From positions 1 through 10,704 of the forward strand of contig CAJOQO010000302.1 of the NCBI GenBank assembly GCA_905236545.1: a DNA stretch of 10,704 bases. Reading direction: 5' to 3'. The first letter of the stretch is position 1, and every line of letters begins with the position of its first letter. The notes under the pieces were generated by a model. It worked only from the letters and a program-made list of their open reading frames with translations. It ran no database searches and had not been told where the DNA came from. Both the position numbers and the translations under genes were made by a program. This stretch comes from an uncultured Lachnospiraceae bacterium (lineage in GTDB: Bacteria; Bacillota; Clostridia; Lachnospirales; Lachnospiraceae). This document shows positions 373-10,162 of this stretch, one piece after another.

Positions 373-1533
373 TCATTTCCCGCCAGTCAGATTCGTATAC
401 ACCGCGGTTACGCCCATCCCGTACGCCTCCTGCTGGTCGTCCGGATCATCGATCGTGTGGACATATACAGGATTGCGGGAGGACAGCACACGCTGAAGGA
501 GATCGTCGGGAACCTGTTCTCCTTCCCTTCCTCCATGCAGATACCGCTGCCGGAACGTTACGCCGAGAAGAAGCTTCCGCTTGATGATCCCGTCAAGCGC
601 GGAATAACTGTATTCCCATACGCCGCTCCGATACAGGGAAAAGATCATTGTCCGGTATCCGCAGCCGTACAGATATTCATACTGCGACGCATGATAAAAC
701 TGCGGAATCATCCGGGGCAGCATGTCCGGGTATTTCCCGGACAGGAACTTCGCCATATACCGGTAGCCCCTGAGCATCTCGGCCGCCTTCACATCCATCA
801 CGATATACACATCCGGATGATCCTGCAGAATCTGCACAAGATCCTCCAATGTCATCGTCGAAAAGAATCCAAGGATCGATCCCTTCGTGAATTCTTCCCA
901 AGTGGCCGCGCTCTCCACCATCGTGCCGTCCGCTTTCACGAAATCCTTCTTCCAGTTGTGAATGCAGACCAGCTTCTTATCCGACGTGAATGCAAAGTCA
1001 ATCTCGACGAAATGAGCTCCTTTGCTCAGTGTCTGCTCCAGGGCTTCCCGGCTGTTTGTATAATCATAGACTTCTCCGTCCGGTCCCGTGATCTCACCGC
1101 AGGCATGGATAATCTTTTTCTCCGACGCAAGCATCCTTCGAAGCTTCAGGGTATGATCCCTTTCCGCCTGATATCTGCTGTTCTCGCGGTATGCGCCCGC
1201 AGCAACAACAGCGGTGACTGCGATCACCAGCACAAGCACCAGCGGCGCCGCACCGATGGAGACCGTCTTCCTGCGAAGCCGGATCGTCCACCATACCCGG
1301 ACGCGGAGAAAGAGCAGATACAGCGCCCCGGCAAGAATCAATCCCAGCGCAAGACCGATACAGACCATGCCTGTGTCCTTCGACAACGCAAACCGCAACG
1401 CACTCCACGCAGAAGCATTTTCATCCACAAAAGACCAGATATAGGAGGTACGCCAGCCAAGCTCCAGCATCGCCGAAAATGCGATCGCATACAGAACAAC
1501 GCCGGCGGCACACAGGGCATTTCTTTTCTTCAT
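373..1533 (-). CDS. membrane-anchored glycerophosphodiester phosphodiesterase-family protein
   Basis: The 386-residue protein has three predicted membrane spans (about residues 5-25, 53-77 and 91-114) and then a GDPD/PI-PLC-like TIM-barrel domain (about 140-384). The basic loop RVRVWWTIRLRRK (78-90) should be cytoplasmic, which places the catalytic domain outside the cell. Family motifs are readable: H143 in HACG, YTNSREAL (158-165), FVEIDF (175-180, metal-ligand positions E178 and D180), LVCIHNW (188-194), VYIVMDVKA (242-250) and a C-terminal YVHTIDD and VYTN. The usual HD is HN here (H192-N193). GDPD enzymes hydrolyse glycerophosphodiesters to glycerol-3-phosphate and an alcohol. Next to an LtaS-like enzyme, the target could be lipid or polymer glycerol-phosphate. 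The ATG at 1533 is the only sensible start, but AAAAGGA abuts it directly, so the SD spacing is poor and translation may depend on coupling from upstream. Confidence 0.88.
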   Translation of the reverse strand: MKKRNALCAAGVVLYAIAFSAMLELGWRTSYIWSFVDENASAWSALRFALSKDTGMVCIGLALGLILAGALYLLFLRVRVWWTIRLRRKTVSIGAAPLVLVLVIAVTAVVAAGAYRENSRYQAERDHTLKLRRMLASEKKIIHACGEITGPDGEVYDYTNSREALEQTLSKGAHFVEIDFAFTSDKKLVCIHNWKKDFVKADGTMVESAATWEEFTKGSILGFFSTMTLEDLVQILQDHPDVYIVMDVKAAEMLRGYRYMAKFLSGKYPDMLPRMIPQFYHASQYEYLYGCGYRTMIFSLYRSGVWEYSYSALDGIIKRKLLLGVTFRQRYLHGGREGEQVPDDLLQRVLSSRNPVYVHTIDDPDDQQEAYGMGVTAVYTNLTGGK

Positions 1534-1539
1534 TCCTTT

Positions 1540-1701
1540 TCACCGGGCAATGCTGCCCATTATCATCCTCTCTGCATCCACAACCAGTGTTGCTGTGCAC
1601 TCCCCGGCACTATGTACATCGGACGTTTTATCCGGCCTGACCGGCGTTTCAACCATACGTTCCACAGACCTGATCAGCAGCGTTTCAGCTAAACTTCTCA
1701 C
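1540..1701 (-). CDS. possible 53-residue small ORF bridging two genes
   Basis: A GTG at 1701-1699 overlaps the TGA of the LtaS-like gene as GTGA. The frame stays open for 53 codons and ends at 1540, six bases before the GDPD-like ATG. It therefore fills the whole gap between the two genes. The peptide runs VRSLAETLLIRSVERM, then VETPVRPDKTS, and ends MIMGSIAR. It has no obvious membrane span, metal motif or recognised family. There is no strong SD before the GTG; an internal ATG near the end has a good SD (AGAGAGG), which would give only a six-residue peptide. It may be a coupling ORF feeding ribosomes to the GDPD-like gene, whose own SD is badly placed, or an open frame by chance. Confidence 0.27.
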   Translation of the reverse strand: MRSLAETLLIRSVERMVETPVRPDKTSDVHSAGECTATLVVDAERMIMGSIAR

Positions 1702-1716
1702 CCGGCCTGACCGGCG
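1632..1716. repeat. 15-bp direct repeat, 70 bp apart
   Basis: CCGGCCTGACCGGCG occurs at 1632-1646 and again at 1702-1716. The right copy encodes the C-terminal tail of the LtaS-like protein and the left copy lies in the gap before the GDPD-like gene. The gap may have grown by duplication of the gene's 3' end. Confidence 0.6.
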
Positions 1717-3908
1717 GCATTGTCCGCGGGCGCTTCGCCCGGATCCGGGACATTGCCTCCGAAGAAATCATCCGTCCGGTTCTCCTTGTCAAACAGATGG
1801 TTGTAGACCAGCAGATTGTATTCCTGCAAACGGTCATACCAGGGAGACTTCTCATTGTCCGGACTCCCGTAATAGACACCGTCCCGGTCCCAGTATCCGT
1901 TCAGCGAGACGATGGGAAGGTCCTCATGAAGATCCAGCAGGAAACGATCGTAGCCCGTCAGCTCCATCCCCGCCGCCTGCTTCATGACAGGCGCCAGATA
2001 ATTCGAGCTGAGATCCATCTCCTTCTCTTCGATATCATAGTTCGCCCAGATCAGATAATTCGAGTGATAGAACTGCATCAGCTCCTCATCCTTCATCTCA
2101 GCCATCGTCTTTCCATAGACCATCTTATAGAACGGATCCTCGAGAAGCGGCTGATGGTCGCCGAAGAATACGATCACCGTCGGATCATCCGTCTGCTCAA
2201 AATAATGCACCAGTTTTTCGAGTGCCTTGTCGGACAGATGGATCTCGGAAAGATAGACATCCGCGTCCGCATACTTCCCGGAGCCGCTTGTCACATGCAC
2301 CGGTTCCTCGAGTTCGTTAACGTCCCAGGTATAAGGACTGTGATTCTGCATCGTGACATTGAAGACAAAGAACGGCGCGTCGCTCTCCCTTTTCGCCTCC
2401 TCATACTCCGCGATCACGCGGTCGATGTCCGCCAGATCCGAAACCCGTCCGTAAACCTCCTCCGCACCGGCAAACTCGTCCTCAAACAGCAGCCTGTCAA
2501 ATCCGAAGAGCTCGTAGACAGTCCGGCGGTTGTATCCGGATGGCTTGTAAGGATGCATGCCGACCGTATGACGGTAGCCCTGGTTCTCCAGCGTCGCGTC
2601 CAGATTCGGCATCGGCTCCTTGATGTAGAGCTGGTACGGCGTGGAACTGACCGGAAGGAATCCCATCGAATCGCCGGTCAGAACCTCATACTCCGTATTG
2701 GCCGTCCGGCCGCCGTAGGACGAAACATAGAGCTTGCCGCGAATCGTATTCTCCTTCAGTCCGGAGAAGAACGGACAAACCTCCCTGTCCGTCTCGAAGT
2801 CCATCCATGACTGCATATCGGAAAATGCTTCATCCATCACATAGATGACGTTGGGCTGAACCGCAGCGCCGGCTTTTTCAGCTCCGGTATCCGCACCGGT
2901 TTTTTCAGCTCCGGAAGACGCACCTGCCTCCCCGGTTCCGGAAGACGCTCCGGCTTTTTCAGTCTCTGAAGACGCTCCGGTTCCCTCCGGTTCCAGATAC
3001 CGCGCCTCAATCTCCTTCACCTTCTCCAGGCTGTAGCCATCCGGCTCCTCCACCACCATGATCTGAATACTGCGGATAAAGGTAAGGATCGAGCCGTTGA
3101 CGCCATAGCTTTTAATCGGGCGGAAGGTATTCATCGTGACGCCGCGGTTGAGAAGAAACTGGCTGTGGATATAGACGCGTTCCGTCAGAATGCTCAGCGC
3201 GAAAACGACGATCAGGGTAACCACTCTCGGCTTCCAGGACGAAAAGATCTTATGCTCCCCGCTCCACAGGATGAGATCGCACCAGGCTGTGGTCATCAAG
3301 ATCATGACCGTCGTGTGGGAATCCAGCCTGTAGGAATAACCGGCTGCAACATTCGCGGCTGTCCCCAGCGTTGTGAGATCTGAAGCAAGAAACGGGGTGC
3401 CGCGCAGCGCATAGACGAAATAGCAGGTCACGCCGAACGAGCAGACCACGATCGCGGTAATCATCGCCGACGTCTGCCAGCGGTTCGTCAGAACCGCAAA
3501 CCACCCTGCAAAAAGGATCACAACGACCCAGGTCAGAAACAGCTTCTTCACGCCGATGTAATACACAACCCACCAGAAGTAACGGTGAGCCCGGATGTTC
3601 GCGTATTCCACCACAAAGATCATGACCACGCTCGTCAGCCAGAAGCCCAGAACCGCATGGATCTTCTTCTGCTTCTCATTCAAAAAGCAGGGAACCCAGA
3701 GGGCAGCAGCCCCCAGAGCCGTGAAGAGGATGACCAGCACGATCTGCAAGAAGTCTGTCCCGGTCTGAATCTCTTCGCCATCTGTTCTTAAATTGACGTT
3801 CAAATAAAAATCCGGATGGGCAAAATAGTACACAGCCACTGCAAGTAAAAACACAGTGCCCAGCAAAGTGCCGATCCGGACTCTCCCCTTTGTATTACTG
3901 TCTTTCAT
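1698..3908 (-). CDS. LTA synthase-family (LtaS/GacH-like) glycerol-phosphate transferase
   Basis: The protein has about seven membrane spans and an extracellular sulfatase-fold domain (about residues 350-680). From the ATG at 3908 it is 736 residues. Active-site features align by eye with LtaS: VMDEAFSD with metal ligand E360, GRTANTEYE with candidate nucleophile T402, NHSPYT with H523, and FFGDHQP with D584 and H585. LtaS-family enzymes transfer glycerol-phosphate from phosphatidylglycerol to a teichoic acid chain or, in GacH-type members, to a cell-wall glycan. LtaS itself has five spans, so this longer form need not make classical lipoteichoic acid. A low-complexity linker (about 309-348) separates membrane and catalytic parts. 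An in-frame TTG at 3947 would add 13 residues; I prefer the ATG, though neither has a strong SD. It leads the second gene block, after a 380-base gap. Confidence 0.9.
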   Translation of the reverse strand: MKDSNTKGRVRIGTLLGTVFLLAVAVYYFAHPDFYLNVNLRTDGEEIQTGTDFLQIVLVILFTALGAAALWVPCFLNEKQKKIHAVLGFWLTSVVMIFVVEYANIRAHRYFWWVVYYIGVKKLFLTWVVVILFAGWFAVLTNRWQTSAMITAIVVCSFGVTCYFVYALRGTPFLASDLTTLGTAANVAAGYSYRLDSHTTVMILMTTAWCDLILWSGEHKIFSSWKPRVVTLIVVFALSILTERVYIHSQFLLNRGVTMNTFRPIKSYGVNGSILTFIRSIQIMVVEEPDGYSLEKVKEIEARYLEPEGTGASSETEKAGASSGTGEAGASSGAEKTGADTGAEKAGAAVQPNVIYVMDEAFSDMQSWMDFETDREVCPFFSGLKENTIRGKLYVSSYGGRTANTEYEVLTGDSMGFLPVSSTPYQLYIKEPMPNLDATLENQGYRHTVGMHPYKPSGYNRRTVYELFGFDRLLFEDEFAGAEEVYGRVSDLADIDRVIAEYEEAKRESDAPFFVFNVTMQNHSPYTWDVNELEEPVHVTSGSGKYADADVYLSEIHLSDKALEKLVHYFEQTDDPTVIVFFGDHQPLLEDPFYKMVYGKTMAEMKDEELMQFYHSNYLIWANYDIEEKEMDLSSNYLAPVMKQAAGMELTGYDRFLLDLHEDLPIVSLNGYWDRDGVYYGSPDNEKSPWYDRLQEYNLLVYNHLFDKENRTDDFFGGNVPDPGEAPADNAAGQAG
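2865..2984 (-). repeat. 27-bp tandem repeat coding for a flexible linker
   Basis: Inside the LtaS-like gene, four imperfect 9-codon units encode GASSETEKA, GASSGTGEA, GASSGAEKT and GADTGAEKA. The segment lies between the last membrane span and the catalytic domain, so it should act as a flexible spacer in or near the cell wall. The unit is a multiple of three, so copy-number change would alter linker length without breaking the frame. Confidence 0.75.
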
Positions 3909-3948
3909 GAAGCTCTTTATACCCTTTATGCCAGTCGTTTCTGCCAAT

Positions 3949-4288: not shown

Positions 4289-5602
4289 TTATCTCAGACT
4301 CTTTCCAAACACCAGCTTCTCGATCCGCTCCGTCGAATGTCCGTCACAGCCGGACATGAATTTCTCGCGGAATTCCTTCATGCGCTCCGGATCATATCCG
4401 AAATCGGGAAGGGTCAGCGCATGGAGCAGCTCCTCCATGTTCCTGCAGACCTGACCTGGAGACAGCTCATCAAAGTTATAATAGAAGCCGCGCCAGTCAA
4501 AGTATTTGTCCAGGTCATAGACATAGGAGATCAGCGGCTTGTTCAGCAGCGAATACTCAAAGATCAGCGAGGAATAGTCCGTGATGCAGACGTCCGCGGT
4601 GATCATCAGATCCTCCACCGACAGCGGCATGCGGGTTACGTCCACCGCAAATGTGCCGTTGTATTCCTCCGGCATCTCCGGAATGTGATAGTCCTTGATG
4701 ATCGGATGATGCTTGATCAGGATGATCACGTCATCCCCAAGCTTCTCCTTCAGCAGCTCCAGGTTGAAGCGCCTGTAGTTCGGCGTCTTGGCAGTCGCCA
4801 CTTTTCCGCGGAAGGTCGGAGCGAAGAAGATCACCTTCTTTCCCCTCGCCTGCGGCACCACCTCATAGACACGCTCCGCGGCGTGATCCAGATGCTTCTG
4901 ATCGAAAAACACATCCGTCCGGCTCACGCCGACCGGCAGGACGATCCCGTGCTTCTCCTTCAGCCCCATCGCCTCCTCATAGGCCCAGACAACCTCCGGG
5001 CTGGAGACCGTAACGAAATCATAATGCTCATACTGCGGATATTTTTCGATCTGCGCGCGGCTCTGCCCGAACATCAGGTCAGCGGTGCTTCTTCCGAATT
5101 TTTTAAATGCGCCGCATCCATGCCACAGCTGACAGACGATGGTTTCCTCACGAAGCGGCAGGCAGCTGAGCACATCGCAGGCCTCGCTCAGGAAGACATA
5201 CTTCGCGTCCCCGAGGTCATTGGCCAGACGGGCGCCGTTGATGTCATGCTGCTTTGCGCGGGTCAGGTTCTTTCCAAGATGATGCACATGGATCCGGTAA
5301 TCTCCGGATGCCTTAAGATCCTTATAGATCAGCTGAAAAGAATTGCTCAGGCCGGACAGCGCATTTTCGATCATGACAACCTTGTGCTCATCGATCGGAT
5401 CCGATGAGTGACGGTTGTAGATCGCCGGAAACCACTCCAGATACAGCTTCTCCTTATGGATCCCTCCGAGATACTTCCGGACCTGCTTGAACGGAGTCTT
5501 CTTCTTGTTCTTCCACCACCATTCTCTCAGGGGAGTCTTCTTCAGAACATCGATCACTCCATCCACTGCCTTATCGACCTTCTTCATCGCCTTTGAACTC
5601 AT
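4289..5602 (-). CDS. CDP-glycerol glycerophosphotransferase family protein (TagB/TagF-like)
   Basis: The 437-residue protein is a single-domain member of the family that transfers glycerol-phosphate (or ribitol-phosphate) from a CDP donor to a teichoic acid or glycan acceptor at the inner face of the membrane. Visible motifs are QLWHGCGAFKKFG (158-170, with H161 at the position of the family's catalytic histidine), FAPTFRG (260-266), IKHHP (296-300) and ITDYSSLIFEY (340-350). The basic N-terminus (KKNKKKTPFKQ and neighbours) could sit against the membrane, as is usual in the family. It is much shorter than the polymerase TagF and nearer in size to TagB-type enzymes, so a single or limited transfer is as likely as polymerisation. 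AGGAG lies 7 bases before the ATG at 5602. It follows the ATPase-Glf gene by 51 bases, so co-transcription is likely. Donor and acceptor cannot be read from sequence. Confidence 0.92.
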   Translation of the reverse strand: MSSKAMKKVDKAVDGVIDVLKKTPLREWWWKNKKKTPFKQVRKYLGGIHKEKLYLEWFPAIYNRHSSDPIDEHKVVMIENALSGLSNSFQLIYKDLKASGDYRIHVHHLGKNLTRAKQHDINGARLANDLGDAKYVFLSEACDVLSCLPLREETIVCQLWHGCGAFKKFGRSTADLMFGQSRAQIEKYPQYEHYDFVTVSSPEVVWAYEEAMGLKEKHGIVLPVGVSRTDVFFDQKHLDHAAERVYEVVPQARGKKVIFFAPTFRGKVATAKTPNYRRFNLELLKEKLGDDVIILIKHHPIIKDYHIPEMPEEYNGTFAVDVTRMPLSVEDLMITADVCITDYSSLIFEYSLLNKPLISYVYDLDKYFDWRGFYYNFDELSPGQVCRNMEELLHALTLPDFGYDPERMKEFREKFMSGCDGHSTERIEKLVFGKSLR

Positions 5603-5653: not shown

Positions 5654-7582
5654 TTACTTCTTCGCACGGAACTTGCGGCCAAGCTCCTTCGTGCACAGCT
5701 TCATCGCAGCGTCGACCACCTGATCCATATTATAATAACGGTAGGTTCCGAGCCTGCCGCCGAAGATCACATTCTTCTCCTGCTTCGCCAGCTCCACATA
5801 CTTCTGATACAGCTCCGTATTCGCCTCGTCATTGACCGGATAATACGGCTCCATCCCATCCTTCCATTCCTCGGAAAACTCCTTCGAGATCACCGTCCCC
5901 GGAATCTCATTGCCGGAAGCATCCTTTCCGAACTGGAACCACTTATGCTCAATGATCCGCGTCCAGGGAACCTCATGCCCGGTATAATTCACAACCGCAT
6001 TGCCCTGATAATTGTCCGTCTCCAGAACCTGCGTCTCAAACCGGACGGTGCGGTACTGCAGCTTTCCAAGCCGATAGTCAAAATACTCATCGATCGGACC
6101 CGTGAAGATCACCTTGCCGTAGCTGTCCGGATATCTCTTCTTATACTCCTGCCAGGGCATATTCAGCAGAACCGGAACGCCCGACAGAAGCTTCTGCATG
6201 ATCGCCGTATAGCCGGCCGTCGGGATCCCCTGGTAAGTGTCGGTGAAATAATTGTTGTCATAGGTGAAGCGCAGCGGCAGCCTCCGGATAATGAACGCCG
6301 GAAGCTCCCTGCAGTCTCTGCCCCACTGCTTCTCGGTGTAGTCCTTCACCAGCTTCTCATAGACATCGCGTCCCACCAGGGAGAGCGCCTGCTCCTCGAG
6401 ATTCTGCGGCTCCCCGATCCCCAGCTCATCGATCTGAGACTGAATCTTCGCCTTCGCCTCGTCCGGCGTCGTCACCCCCCACATCTTCGAAAAGGTATTC
6501 ATATTGAAGGGCAGGTTATACAGCTCGTCTTTGTATCTGGCAACCGGCGAATTCACATACTGATTGAACGGGGACAGGCGGTTCATGTATTTCCATACCC
6601 GCGTATTCGAGGTGTGGAAAATGTGCGCGCCGTATTTGTGTACGTTGATGCCGTTGATCTTCTCCGTATAGACATTTCCGCCGATATGATCTCTCTGGTC
6701 GATCACCGCGACGCTCTTGCCCGCCAGCCTCGCCTCCCTGGCGAAGATCGAGCCGAACAGTCCCGCGCCGACCACGAGATAGTCCACCCGCTTTCCCTGC
6801 TCGAGCAGTGCGCGGTCCTCCTCCAGCTTGCGGCTGTAGGAATACACACGGTCCGGCCGGTGCATATAGGCGTCGCACACCGTATCCGGATCGCCCTCCA
6901 TCAGCACCTCGCCGTGCTCCAGCCACAGAACATGGTCGCACAGATTCTTGACAGACTCGATATCGTGCGACACATACAGAAGCGTCGTACCGCCCGACAG
7001 CATATGGCGCATTCTCTCATTGCAGCGTTTGCGGAAATTCGCGTCGCCAACCGCCAGCACCTCGTCGCAGATCAGGATATCCGGATCCACCATGGTCGCC
7101 ACGGAAAAGCCAAGCCGCGCCTTCATACCGGAAGAATAATTCTTGATCGGAGAATTCAGGAAGTTTTCCAGCTCCGCGAACTCCACGATCTCGTCAAAAT
7201 GCTCTTCCATGAATTTTCTTGAGTGTCCGAGTACGGAACCATTCAGAAAGATGTTCTCCCGCGCTGTCATTTCCTGGTCGAAGCCCGCACCGAGCTCGAT
7301 CATCGGCGCGATCTGGCCGCGCACCTTCACCGTGCCCTTATACGGCTGCAGGATCCCGGTGATCGCCTTCAGCAGCGTACTCTTGCCCGAGCCGTTGGTT
7401 CCGATCAGGCCCCAGGATTCCCCCTTCTGCACATGGAGGTCGACATCCTTCAGCGCCAGGAACTCCTGAAACGTCAGCTCATGCTTCAGCCGCTTGATCG
7501 TATACTCCTTCAGGTTATCCACCTTGATGTTGCCAAGGTTGAACCGGATGGAAAGATGATCCACATCGATAATATTCGCCAT
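5654..7582 (-). CDS. glf: polysaccharide-export ABC ATPase fused to UDP-galactopyranose mutase
   Basis: One 642-residue frame encodes two complete cytosolic enzymes. Residues 1-245 form a Wzt/TagH-type ATPase: Walker A GTNGSGKST (61-69), signature YSSGMKAR (149-156), Walker B DILICDE (168-174) and H-loop YVSHD (203-207). After a charged helical linker (about 246-264), residues 265-642 form a full-length Glf that interconverts UDP-galactopyranose and UDP-galactofuranose. It has the FAD-binding GAGLFG (272-277), YTEKQWG (415-421) and GGRLGTYRYYNMD (608-620); R434, Y445 and R542 align by eye with known active-site residues. Glf takes the place where some Wzt proteins carry a glycan-binding domain. 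The ATG at 7582 has a good SD (AAAGGGAG). A GTG at 7654, overlapping the permease stop as GTGA, would add 24 residues but has weaker support. The gene lies directly after the permease gene, its likely membrane partner. Confidence 0.93.
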   Translation of the reverse strand: MANIIDVDHLSIRFNLGNIKVDNLKEYTIKRLKHELTFQEFLALKDVDLHVQKGESWGLIGTNGSGKSTLLKAITGILQPYKGTVKVRGQIAPMIELGAGFDQEMTARENIFLNGSVLGHSRKFMEEHFDEIVEFAELENFLNSPIKNYSSGMKARLGFSVATMVDPDILICDEVLAVGDANFRKRCNERMRHMLSGGTTLLYVSHDIESVKNLCDHVLWLEHGEVLMEGDPDTVCDAYMHRPDRVYSYSRKLEEDRALLEQGKRVDYLVVGAGLFGSIFAREARLAGKSVAVIDQRDHIGGNVYTEKINGINVHKYGAHIFHTSNTRVWKYMNRLSPFNQYVNSPVARYKDELYNLPFNMNTFSKMWGVTTPDEAKAKIQSQIDELGIGEPQNLEEQALSLVGRDVYEKLVKDYTEKQWGRDCRELPAFIIRRLPLRFTYDNNYFTDTYQGIPTAGYTAIMQKLLSGVPVLLNMPWQEYKKRYPDSYGKVIFTGPIDEYFDYRLGKLQYRTVRFETQVLETDNYQGNAVVNYTGHEVPWTRIIEHKWFQFGKDASGNEIPGTVISKEFSEEWKDGMEPYYPVNDEANTELYQKYVELAKQEKNVIFGGRLGTYRYYNMDQVVDAAMKLCTKELGRKFRAKK

Positions 7583-7650: not shown

Positions 7651-8439
7651 TCACAGGAACAGGACGAACCGGTTCTTATTCTTCTGGAACATGAACAGGC
7701 CGATCGCCAGCAGCAGAAATGCCCAGATCCATCCGCCGATCATCAGTCTTGGTCCCGGCATCCTGCCATGCAGCGCGATATCGCGGAACTGGAAAATGTA
7801 ATAGTACATCGGATTAAATACCTTCACGAATACCTGCAGCGCGACCGGCAGCCGCTCGATCGGATAGAACAGGGCGGACAGATACATCCACGCCGTGCAG
7901 ATCGCGTGATAGATATACTCAATATCGCGGAAGAACACATTCATCTCCGCGAGCCAGAAGCTGACTCCCAGCGTGAAGATATACAGCTGAACCAGAATCA
8001 CCGGCAGATAGAGCAGCTGCCAGTGGAAGGGCGTCCGGGTAGCGATCATGACGATGAAAAATGCGCCGAAGGAGAAGATCGTGTCGACGAAGATGCTCGA
8101 CACCTTCGCGACTGTGAAGATGTACTTCGGAATATAGGTCTTCTTCATGAGCGCCGCATTGGCGGTCACACTCTTCAGGCCGTTCATCGTACCGGTCTTC
8201 ATGAACTCAAACAGCGTCCGGCCGCAGAGCAGGTAGATCGGGTAATTCTCGATGTTCTTCTTAAACATCGAGGAGAACACGACTGTCAGAACGATCATGA
8301 TCAGCAGAGGATTCAGCACGCTCCACACATACCCCAGAAAGCTTCTGCGGTACTTCAGCTTGATGTCGCGCTTGATCAGCTCGAGCAGAAGGTCTTTATA
8401 TTTTACAAATGTCCGCAGCCGGAATTCCAAATTATTCAT
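7651..8439 (-). CDS. polysaccharide / teichoic acid ABC transporter permease (Wzm/TagG family)
   Basis: The 262-residue ABC-2-type permease has the family's N-terminal amphipathic segment (LLLELIKRDIKLKYRRSFLGYVWS, about 17-40, given here as a range with its key basic residues) and about six membrane spans (roughly 40-58, 66-82, 108-133, 141-163, 177-193 and 232-251). It would form the membrane channel for a lipid-linked glycan, driven by the ATPase half of the next gene. I chose the ATG at 8439 because MNNLEFRLRTFVKYKDLLLE matches the usual beginning of this family; its GGAGAG lies about 11 bases upstream. An upstream ATG at 8508 has GGAG at 4 bases but would add 23 atypical residues and overlap the preceding gene by 35 bases. 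The stop overlaps a GTG of the downstream frame. Confidence 0.92.
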   Translation of the reverse strand: MNNLEFRLRTFVKYKDLLLELIKRDIKLKYRRSFLGYVWSVLNPLLIMIVLTVVFSSMFKKNIENYPIYLLCGRTLFEFMKTGTMNGLKSVTANAALMKKTYIPKYIFTVAKVSSIFVDTIFSFGAFFIVMIATRTPFHWQLLYLPVILVQLYIFTLGVSFWLAEMNVFFRDIEYIYHAICTAWMYLSALFYPIERLPVALQVFVKVFNPMYYYIFQFRDIALHGRMPGPRLMIGGWIWAFLLLAIGLFMFQKNKNRFVLFL

Positions 8440-8473
8440 CAGCTCATCATCTCTCCAATGATACAGGGCACAG

Positions 8474-10162
8474 TCAATTCGAGGTCTCCGGGACAGTCTC
8501 CGGGACATAATTCTCCAGCTTCGAATAGTCCAGAACGATCACCGGGCAGACCGACAGATTCGCATCCGTCACATCATCCCCATAAAGAACCAGATTGCCC
8601 TTCGCAGTCATGTAAACAGCGCTCTCCAGATCCCGGCCCGGCGTACGCATCCACATATCCACGCCCGGAGCCTTCAGGATGTCCCCGTCGATGTACGACT
8701 GCATCTCCTCCACACTCAGAATCGTAATGATGTCCTTCGTCTTATCCTTCAGCGCAGTTCCGTATTTCGGGTTCAGGGACGAACCGGACTCCTGCTCCAC
8801 AAGCGCTTTCCGCTCCGCCTCCGTAAACTCCGCATTCAGCGCAGTATCGTTCAGGTATGCGCGAAGAGAAGAAGATTTCCACGAAGCATCCGCCTCTTCT
8901 GATTCTGATTCCTTCACAGAATCGCTTTCCGCCGCAGGCTCAGCTTCCTCGGACTTTCCCTTGTCGGACTTTGCTTCATCGGACTGAGTTTCGCCCGTCT
9001 TTACTTCACTGTCCGGCCCGTTCTGCTCCGACTCGCGGGCATTCAGCTCCTCCATCGTCAGCTGCACGCCGTCATAGGACACATTGGAAAACGCCGTCTT
9101 CTCATCCGGTCCAAGGCAAACCAGCCGCAGCTTTGTACCATCCTTCTCCAGAACCTTCCATTTCAGATCAGAGAACGTCACAGAATTACCCGGCTGAGCA
9201 TTTTCAAAGAAATGCGCCTCATCCTGCTCCTTCTCAAGGCGAAACTGCTCCCGATAGTATTCATACTGCTTCCGGCTGTCCAGATAGTCCCCCAGTTTAT
9301 AGAACCGGCTGTAGGCGGACTGATAGAATCCCGCCTTCCCCTCGAGGCTCGCAACCAGATACGAAAAAAGGCCGCTCGAAACGACATACACGATCGCGCC
9401 CACAATCACAGCGAACACCACCAGCACCGTCCACCTGTGGCCGGATGTCTTCCTCGAGAACCTGACAACCTTCGCGTCAGCCTGCGCCTTGAACGCCTCC
9501 GTCTCCCGAAGCATCTCATCGTAGCGGCTCAGAGAAGCCTGAAGATCCTCAACTGTCTTCTTCTTCTCACCCTTCTCTGTCTCCTCGCTATCCTCTGTCT
9601 TCTCGCTATCCTCTGCCTTCCTGCTATCCTCTGTCTTCTCGCTACCCTCTGTTTTCTTGCTATCTTCTCTATTATCTTGATTATCTTTGTTTTCAGAAGC
9701 CGTCTCTCCATCCGCGGAGGGCTTGTCCGCCTCAGCGCCAGAATGTTTTTCGGCTGCCTGACTTGCTTCTTTCAATTGCTCTCTGACCGTATCCTGCCGG
9801 TCACGGATCTCCTCGAGAAGCTGATCCAGCTCATCCGCAGCCTTGCTGTATTCATACTCATCCACAGCCGTCTTCAGATGCTGCTTCGCCCTCTCATAGT
9901 CTGTCCGGACCAGCTGGTCTTCCGCTTCATCGATTCCATCCAGACACACCTTCATCATCTCAGCGGCATCGGGATGTCCCGGAATCTGCTCAAGAAGCTC
10001 TATCGCCCTCGCAAAGTTCTCCAGGCGATACCTCGGATTCACGGCGCACTCATCCGACTCGATCAGCGTCACAACCCGCTTAGCGATCGACTCATCCGAC
10101 TCATACAGCGCACGCTTATTCTTTTTTGATTTCAGATAATCACCAAATCTTATCTTAGCCAT
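8474..10162 (-). CDS. single-pass membrane protein with TPR-like repeats and a DUF6273-like domain
   Basis: The 562-residue protein has a helical N-terminal half with repeat-like segments (about 47-135), a low-complexity Glu/Lys/Ser/Thr region (about 140-202), one membrane span (about 243-268) and an extracellular half. The outer part starts with a TPR-like SRFYKLGDYLDSRKQYEYY (285-303). It then has a domain resembling DUF6273: SDLKWKVLEKDG (331-342), SWKSSSLRAYLND (427-439), IITILSVEEM (478-487), and VCPVIVLD (538-545). An acidic insertion (about 376-426) splits this domain. I assign the domain from memory of Firmicute proteins and know no enzymatic role for it. Position ahead of the export genes suggests a scaffold or sensor for the polymer machinery, but that is inference. 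The ATG at 10162 has no clear SD. The C-terminus ends VPETVPETSN, from a 12-bp duplication. Confidence 0.8.
   Translation of the reverse strand: MAKIRFGDYLKSKKNKRALYESDESIAKRVVTLIESDECAVNPRYRLENFARAIELLEQIPGHPDAAEMMKVCLDGIDEAEDQLVRTDYERAKQHLKTAVDEYEYSKAADELDQLLEEIRDRQDTVREQLKEASQAAEKHSGAEADKPSADGETASENKDNQDNREDSKKTEGSEKTEDSRKAEDSEKTEDSEETEKGEKKKTVEDLQASLSRYDEMLRETEAFKAQADAKVVRFSRKTSGHRWTVLVVFAVIVGAIVYVVSSGLFSYLVASLEGKAGFYQSAYSRFYKLGDYLDSRKQYEYYREQFRLEKEQDEAHFFENAQPGNSVTFSDLKWKVLEKDGTKLRLVCLGPDEKTAFSNVSYDGVQLTMEELNARESEQNGPDSEVKTGETQSDEAKSDKGKSEEAEPAAESDSVKESESEEADASWKSSSLRAYLNDTALNAEFTEAERKALVEQESGSSLNPKYGTALKDKTKDIITILSVEEMQSYIDGDILKAPGVDMWMRTPGRDLESAVYMTAKGNLVLYGDDVTDANLSVCPVIVLDYSKLENYVPETVPETSN
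8484..8507. repeat. 12-bp perfect tandem duplication
   Basis: GTCTCCGGGACA occurs twice back to back (8484-8495 and 8496-8507). It encodes VPET-VPET near the C-terminus of the upstream protein and overlaps the possible upstream start of the permease. Both copies stay in frame. Confidence 0.85.
9566..9658 (-). repeat. 18-bp degenerate tandem repeat encoding an acidic/basic low-complexity segment
   Basis: Inside the DUF6273-like gene, units resembling CTCGCTATCCTCTGTCTT on the plus strand encode SEKTED-type hexapeptides (GSEKTED, SRKAED, SEKTED, SEETEK) at residues 169-199. The segment is cytoplasmic by the predicted topology and probably unstructured or extended. Confidence 0.7.

Follow-up and report, generated by a model that had tools for sequence, protein, structure and literature searches.

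Can the motor of a polysaccharide exporter and an enzyme that makes a precursor for its cargo be one and the same protein? This question is raised by a gene in a stretch of 10,704 nucleotides from an uncultured Lachnospiraceae bacterium (hereafter the window), which is contig C302 of a 349-contig assembly with a completeness of 72%. The gene is a single open frame of 642 codons on the minus strand, beginning with the ATG at 7582 and ending with the stop codon at 5654-5656, and in a mechanical list of open reading frames an upstream GTG would give a 666-aa form. From the letters alone, an earlier sequence-only reading had taken it for an in-frame fusion of a Wzt-type export ATPase (NBD) with a UDP-galactopyranose mutase (Glf), and this fusion is confirmed here. 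Both domain assignments agree with Pfam and NCBIfam. Pfam matches ABC_tran at residues 44-175 (85.5 bits), NAD_binding_8 at 270-336 and GLF at 410-616 (263.8 bits), while the Glf half exceeds the NCBIfam equivalog cut-off of TIGR00031 (UDP-galactopyranose mutase), with 380.3 bits against 303.75. As had been proposed, both halves are full length with their catalytic motifs, judging from the domain matches and the conserved motifs, and neither a stop codon nor a frameshift separates them, since the frame is unbroken and relatives are also fused. The charged helical linker between them is upheld because the AlphaFold2 model (mean pLDDT 84.9) has a helix at residues 249-261, after a weak spot at 243-246, with a folded domain on either side; the pTM of the model is 0.65, and consequently the relative orientation of the two domains is not to be trusted. 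The domain border had to be moved, from near residue 250 to near residue 266. The features of the locus are listed in Table 1.

Table 1. Features of the window around the fused gene (positions in the window; residue numbers refer to the fusion protein)
Feature	Position	Strand	Basis
wzt-glf fusion gene, 642 codons plus stop	5654..7582	-	one open frame; both domains by Pfam and NCBIfam
Wzt/TarH-type ATPase (NBD), residues 1-239	6866..7582	-	Pfam, structure and sequence matches
Walker A motif, residues 61-69	7376..7402	-	alignment of 21 fusions
Linker, 27 residues (240-266), predicted helix 249-261	6785..6865	-	length comparison and model
UDP-galactopyranose mutase (Glf), residues 267-642	5657..6784	-	Pfam, NCBIfam, structure matches
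Arg434, E. coli Glf position 170 by alignment	6281..6283	-	48/49 fused, 119/119 unfused Glf
Asn618, E. coli Glf position 348; Asp in nearly all unfused Glf	5729..5731	-	Asn in 37/49 fused, 2/119 unfused Glf
Wzm/TarG-type permease gene, directly upstream of the fusion	7651..8508	-	PF01061
TagF/TarL-like CDP-polyol phosphotransferase gene, directly downstream	4289..5602	-	PF04464, 222 bits
Protein with DUF6273 region	8474-10162	-	Pfam/NCBIfam scan
Sulfatase-domain protein, weak LtaS similarity	1698-3947	-	Pfam/NCBIfam scan
GDPD-domain protein	373-1533	-	Pfam/NCBIfam scan

Then, is the fusion peculiar to one assembly, and how far has it spread? A search for proteins spanning both domains, which the sequence-only reading had suggested, scored 7,999 candidates, and both domains are present in all of the best 120, which were listed; apart from the window's own protein (100%), these show 69-83% identity. 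That reading had also considered that close relatives might all have separate genes, which is not what was found, since 15 of the genus's 19 genomes, among them that of the window, keep the fusion (it is cut by a contig end in G398 and carries an insert in Glf in G400). The four genus genomes without the fusion are also without Glf, and three of them are just 68-75% complete. Outside the genus the fusion is rare. The whole junction occurs in six of the 397 genomes of an even sample of the family. Three of the six are not from the genus, and in G226, one of these three, the fusion is cut by a contig end; some Glf is present in 358 of the 397. The samples of the class (1/291) and the phylum (1/398), which overlap, each have the fusion only in the window's own genome. 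Junction matches in the family sample that start at query positions 22-43 were not counted as near-fusions, because no NBD lies upstream in the fetched loci. In a genome collection at least 13 fusions were found (13 among the 80 loci kept of 584), among them that of a named Porcincola intestinalis strain (Lachnospiraceae). The Glf places in the genome of P. intestinalis (G413) are the same as in G397, and therefore the window's genus probably includes this species. With the fusion in the genus, in the best 120 homologues and in the collection alike, a sequencing artefact or frameshift was rejected.

What kind of exporter does the ATPase half belong to? It has the ABC motifs, its closest similarity is to the Wzt/TarH NBDs, and the nearest solved structures are the NBDs of Wzt and TarH/TagH. 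Across 21 aligned fusions the Walker A motif (in which only T62 varies), SSGMKAR at 150-156, D173-E174 and H206 are invariant, and an ABC-2-type permease gene lies immediately upstream of the fusion in all 12 loci examined. The half is not filed as an equivalog of NF050108 (galactan Wzt/RfbE), since it reaches 203.1 bits against a cut-off of 400, and the cut-off of the TagH model NF010066 was not reached either (174 bits vs. 320). In NBD fold and motifs, as well as in the adjacent permease gene, the fusion is similar to the Wzm-Wzt O-antigen exporters (A. aeolicus 6m96, 8dku); however, the A. aeolicus Wzt is separate from Glf and ends in a lectin domain. The TarGH/TagGH wall teichoic acid exporters have a similar NBD (7dd0, 9cfl, 6jbh) and, as here, genes for polyol-phosphate enzymes nearby, but no mutase is attached to TarH or TagH. 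In Haemophilus parainfluenzae strain 13, wzm, wzt and glf lie in one locus, as in the window, although Wzt and Glf are separate proteins and Wzt is described as having no C-terminal extension (PMC3989065).

In those Wzt proteins that have a carbohydrate-binding domain, a second domain follows the NBD in tandem at its C-terminus, as in the fusion; there, it is a jelly-roll lectin reported to read the chain end (PMC9445017), whereas here it is a nucleotide-sugar flavoenzyme. The idea that Glf replaces this glycan-binding region had to be given up. The eight nearest unfused NBDs in the NBD tree belong to proteins of 245-298 aa without such a domain, compared with 404 aa for the A. aeolicus Wzt that carries one, and a jelly-roll lectin (carbohydrate-binding) domain is absent from the fusion in the Pfam and Foldseek results, its C-terminus being Glf. 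Therefore, the more likely course is that a Wzt with no lectin domain acquired Glf, and the role of Glf as a stand-in for a lost carbohydrate-binding domain is unsupported.

Could the attached mutase be active? Its FAD-binding N-terminus is present (the NAD_binding_8 match), and it has the fold and active-site residues of the bacterial mutases, or UGMs (E. coli 1i8t, K. pneumoniae 2bi7, C. jejuni 4mo2), with a TM-score, normalised by target, of 0.96 for the whole Glf domain against both 4mo2 and 1i8t. Those enzymes, however, stand alone, whereas here the mutase is joined to an exporter motor and most fusions have Asn in place of Asp at residue 618. The best structural match is a UDP-GalNAc mutase of the C. 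jejuni type, but this specificity is less likely, because residue 323, a His invariant in the 21 aligned fusions, stands in the alignment where the C. jejuni enzyme has Arg59, which we take to be a residue with a role in that enzyme. Among 113 Glf columns conserved to at least 98% in 119 unfused Glf, the window deviates at two, Y569F and D618N; it retains His320, Tyr415, Trp420, Arg434, Tyr445, Arg542, Tyr581 and Tyr616, with Asn618 as the exception. Residue 618 is Asn in 37, Asp in 11 and Gly in one of the 49 fused Glf, while it is Asp in 117 of the 119 unfused ones. In the Aspergillus fumigatus enzyme, Asn457 is given as a galactose contact (PMC3624792), and this residue appears to occupy the place equivalent to 618, so that Asn618 need not imply lost activity. 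Of the 15 genus genomes with the fusion, 12 have no other PF03275 match (G397, G400 and G374 have a second Glf); for most of them, consequently, UDP-Galf has no known source besides the fused Glf. The fused Glf is most likely an active mutase tethered to the exporter. Two observations count against this view, namely that D618N alters a conserved position of the active site in 37 of the 49 fusions and that 3 of the 15 genomes have a second Glf.

Some variants of Glf should also be noted. In P0040, P0043 and L156:1492-3642, a single loop of the fused Glf (near residue 388 of the window's protein) carries long alanine-rich inserts. Genome G420 has two Glf matches (contigs C109 and C110), and the open frames of both, at 661 and 660 aa, are as long as a fusion. 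P0122, the second-best match in one search, is a protein of 629 aa with two tandem Glf units and no NBD; it was set aside and may represent a fused pair or have arisen in assembly.

What would be the cargo? The comparison with the galactan cluster of Klebsiella O2, drawn from the letters alone, stands only as a loose likeness, since CDP-polyol-type phosphotransferases, IspD-like cytidylyltransferases and LicD abound in the fusion loci, and a Klebsiella-type galactan cluster is unsupported by these neighbours. In the window, a Glyphos_transf gene adjoins the fusion. A pooled scan of neighbours in 12 fusion loci, which covered 97 of 105 picked ORFs (some on the minus strand possibly spurious), gave, among the 25 of 56 families listed, 17 matches to Glyphos_transf, 12 to ABC2_membrane, 8 to epimerase and 6 each to IspD, LicD and GT2; the 12 ABC2_membrane matches agree with the 12 permease genes beside the fusions. 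By their domain content, the neighbours appear to be the toolkit of a teichoic-acid-like polymer. The content differs from locus to locus: in L035, no polyol-phosphate genes were found in the downstream ORFs scanned, which are part of an uptake system. A link to galactofuranose comes from an unfused wzm-wzt-glf locus of a Lachnospiraceae relative (L025), where the gene directly after glf (L173:8711-10567) encodes a GlfT2 N-terminal domain at 35.6 bits (cut-off 26.1), which connects exporters of this type with galactofuranan. The domain is present only in the unfused G250 and absent from the 33 other genomes searched, fusion-bearing and not.

Further genes of the locus are as follows. The genes for the GDPD-domain and the weakly LtaS-like sulfatase-domain proteins share the strand of the fusion, as would fit a region of teichoic-acid type. 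A gene of the DUF6273 type directly precedes that of the permease in six of the 13 loci compared (the window and twelve others), that is, in the window, L032:7815-9014, L033:227-1411, L034:7934-9166, L035:7795-8958 and L044:8045-9184, but not in L036 and L038-L043. These proteins are mutually similar, and the DUF6273-type protein is a possible third part of the exporter.

How, and how often, did the two genes join? A branch of the NBD tree with an SH-aLRT of 78 has the fused NBDs on one of its sides (46 fused, 16 unfused), and in the Glf tree 48 of 49 fused Glf form one clade (SH-aLRT 93), with L044, on a long branch, as the exception. Two Glf trees needed two changes, owing to the long branches of L044 (and P0123). 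When all 29 fusions were constrained together in a Glf tree of 26 of the 48 other fusions, L044, P0123, P0136 and every third unfused Glf (40/119), the log-likelihood was 51.7 above that of the free quick search, with a p-AU of 0.951. Therefore, repeated independent fusion is not needed, though conceivable; one event is the simplest reading, with which the trees appear compatible. It should be noted that the duplicate loci L001, L112, L142, L113, L114 and L116 were excluded from the trees and the linker count, and proteins of set A1 shorter than 625 aa from the trees. The gap between unfused wzt and glf is 20 nt in L025 and 16 nt in L093, and such an adjacent pair is likely the starting state, so that the fusion probably arose from neighbouring genes. 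In six more related unfused loci the distance from wzt to the downstream glf is 1.8-6.7 kb. Tight pairs are uncommon: among the short Glf loci fetched, only L025 and, with a distant NBD, L007 have such a neighbour. The fusion is an old inherited feature of one lineage. The linker varies in sequence, but hardly in length, with 27 residues in 19 of 29 fusions, 26 in 8, 28 in one and 30 in one (L044, the longest), and such a near-constant length speaks for a set spacing between the halves rather than a loose tether.

The main result against a join that exists only to place an active mutase is the side branch of L044 and P0123. In both, five of the nine substrate contacts examined are replaced, Arg434 included, while the FAD contacts His320 and Arg610 are kept; these nine are among the ten KpUGM substrate residues of a review table (F152 omitted), placed by numbering offsets rather than by a Klebsiella alignment. 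Replaced contacts are modestly enriched over other conserved columns (Fisher p 0.047 and 0.017). L044 and P0123 are both full-length proteins, with 81% identity between their NBDs, 61% between their Glf halves and eight derived residues in common. A further Glf in the L044 genome, truncated by a contig end, shows the usual motifs; next to it lies a second exporter pair, which is dissimilar and has an ATPase of 430 aa (L174:3007-6378). The Glf of this branch may either have decayed after replacement or have changed its role, and the fusion being kept with a remodelled pocket hints at another role for it there.

We propose, with a probability of about 0.6, that the fusion is a bifunctional protein, that is, the ATPase subunit of a Wzm-Wzt/TarGH-like exporter with an active C-terminal mutase, and that it goes back to a single joining of neighbouring wzt and glf genes. 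The cargo would most likely be a teichoic-acid-like polymer of the polyol-phosphate type, lipid-linked and containing galactofuranose. With two ATPase subunits in each exporter, as expected from the family, there would be two mutases, which could pair in a 2:2 arrangement, since bacterial UGMs are said to tend to be dimers (PMC3624792). UDP-Galf would then arise below the exporter, close to the transferases that assemble the cargo and may benefit from this supply, and the fusion could couple precursor supply to export, as the sequence-only reading had supposed. In Mycobacterium smegmatis, Glf is reported to be mainly cytosolic, so Galf polymers need no tethering, and an interaction of GlfT2 with Wzm-Wzt has been proposed (PMC10951656). 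The proposal is also weakened by the remodelled pocket of L044 and P0123, by the downstream genes at L035 and by the absence of the GlfT2 N-terminal domain from the fusion-bearing genomes searched. An unlikely extension would make Glf both gate and enzyme, with the ATPase sensing the ligand state of Glf so that export follows supply, and with the L044/P0123 branch keeping only the gate or scaffold.

Could the join be without such a function? It is conceivable, though doubtful, that the stop codon separating adjacent wzt and glf disappeared in one event and that the fusion is neutral or merely fixes a 1:1 ratio, persisting since both halves continue to function, with no local supply or crosstalk. 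The adjacent pairs of L025 and L093 and the soluble nature of UDP-Galf agree with this, and the trees, which fit a single event, give no sign of repeated selection for the join. However, no unfused derivative has been seen among the fusions, the linker is kept at 26-27 residues in 27 of 29 fusions though its sequence varies, and the fusion outlasted the remodelling of Glf in L044 and P0123. The same two proteins, with their replaced contacts in full-length chains and the second Glf in the L044 genome, could point to Glf as a mainly non-catalytic part of the exporter, such as a dimer clamp, a UDP-Galp/UDP-Galf sensor or a glycan reader, at the place where some Wzt have a lectin. The C-terminal domain of the A. 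aeolicus Wzt, which binds the cap, offers a parallel, since cap recognition seems to reduce ATPase activity (PMC9445017). We consider this role improbable: the other 48 fused Glf almost always keep the catalytic Arg, Tyr, Trp and His positions checked, 12 of the 15 genomes have no Glf besides the fusion, and L044 may equally reflect decay after replacement.

That the fusion is an artefact of assembly or annotation, or that one gene yields two proteins by an internal start or cleavage, is hardly credible. The fragmented and incomplete source assembly would allow the former, and the window has a GTG at residue 266, preceded by a weak purine-rich stretch. Nevertheless, the same junction occurs in many genomes, that of the named P. 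intestinalis strain included, and start codons at the border are not conserved: 14 of 28 fusions have none within the 26 codons examined, and an internal start for a separate Glf was rejected.

One of the fusion proteins (P0072) is already named UDP-galactopyranose mutase in the public record; the sequences are public, and the architecture seems to have gone unremarked. A Wzt-Glf fusion is not described in the literature searched, the coverage of which leaves out most subscription journals, and the accessible part of a paper on module organisation in Klebsiella mentions no wzt-glf fusion (PMC11231755). In this lineage, a precursor enzyme and an export motor have been joined throughout, and their coupling can be tested in one purified protein. 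If Glf does act as a gate, the L044/P0123 branch would present a metabolic enzyme turned into a transporter domain. The fusion is a natural test of the link between sugar supply and export.
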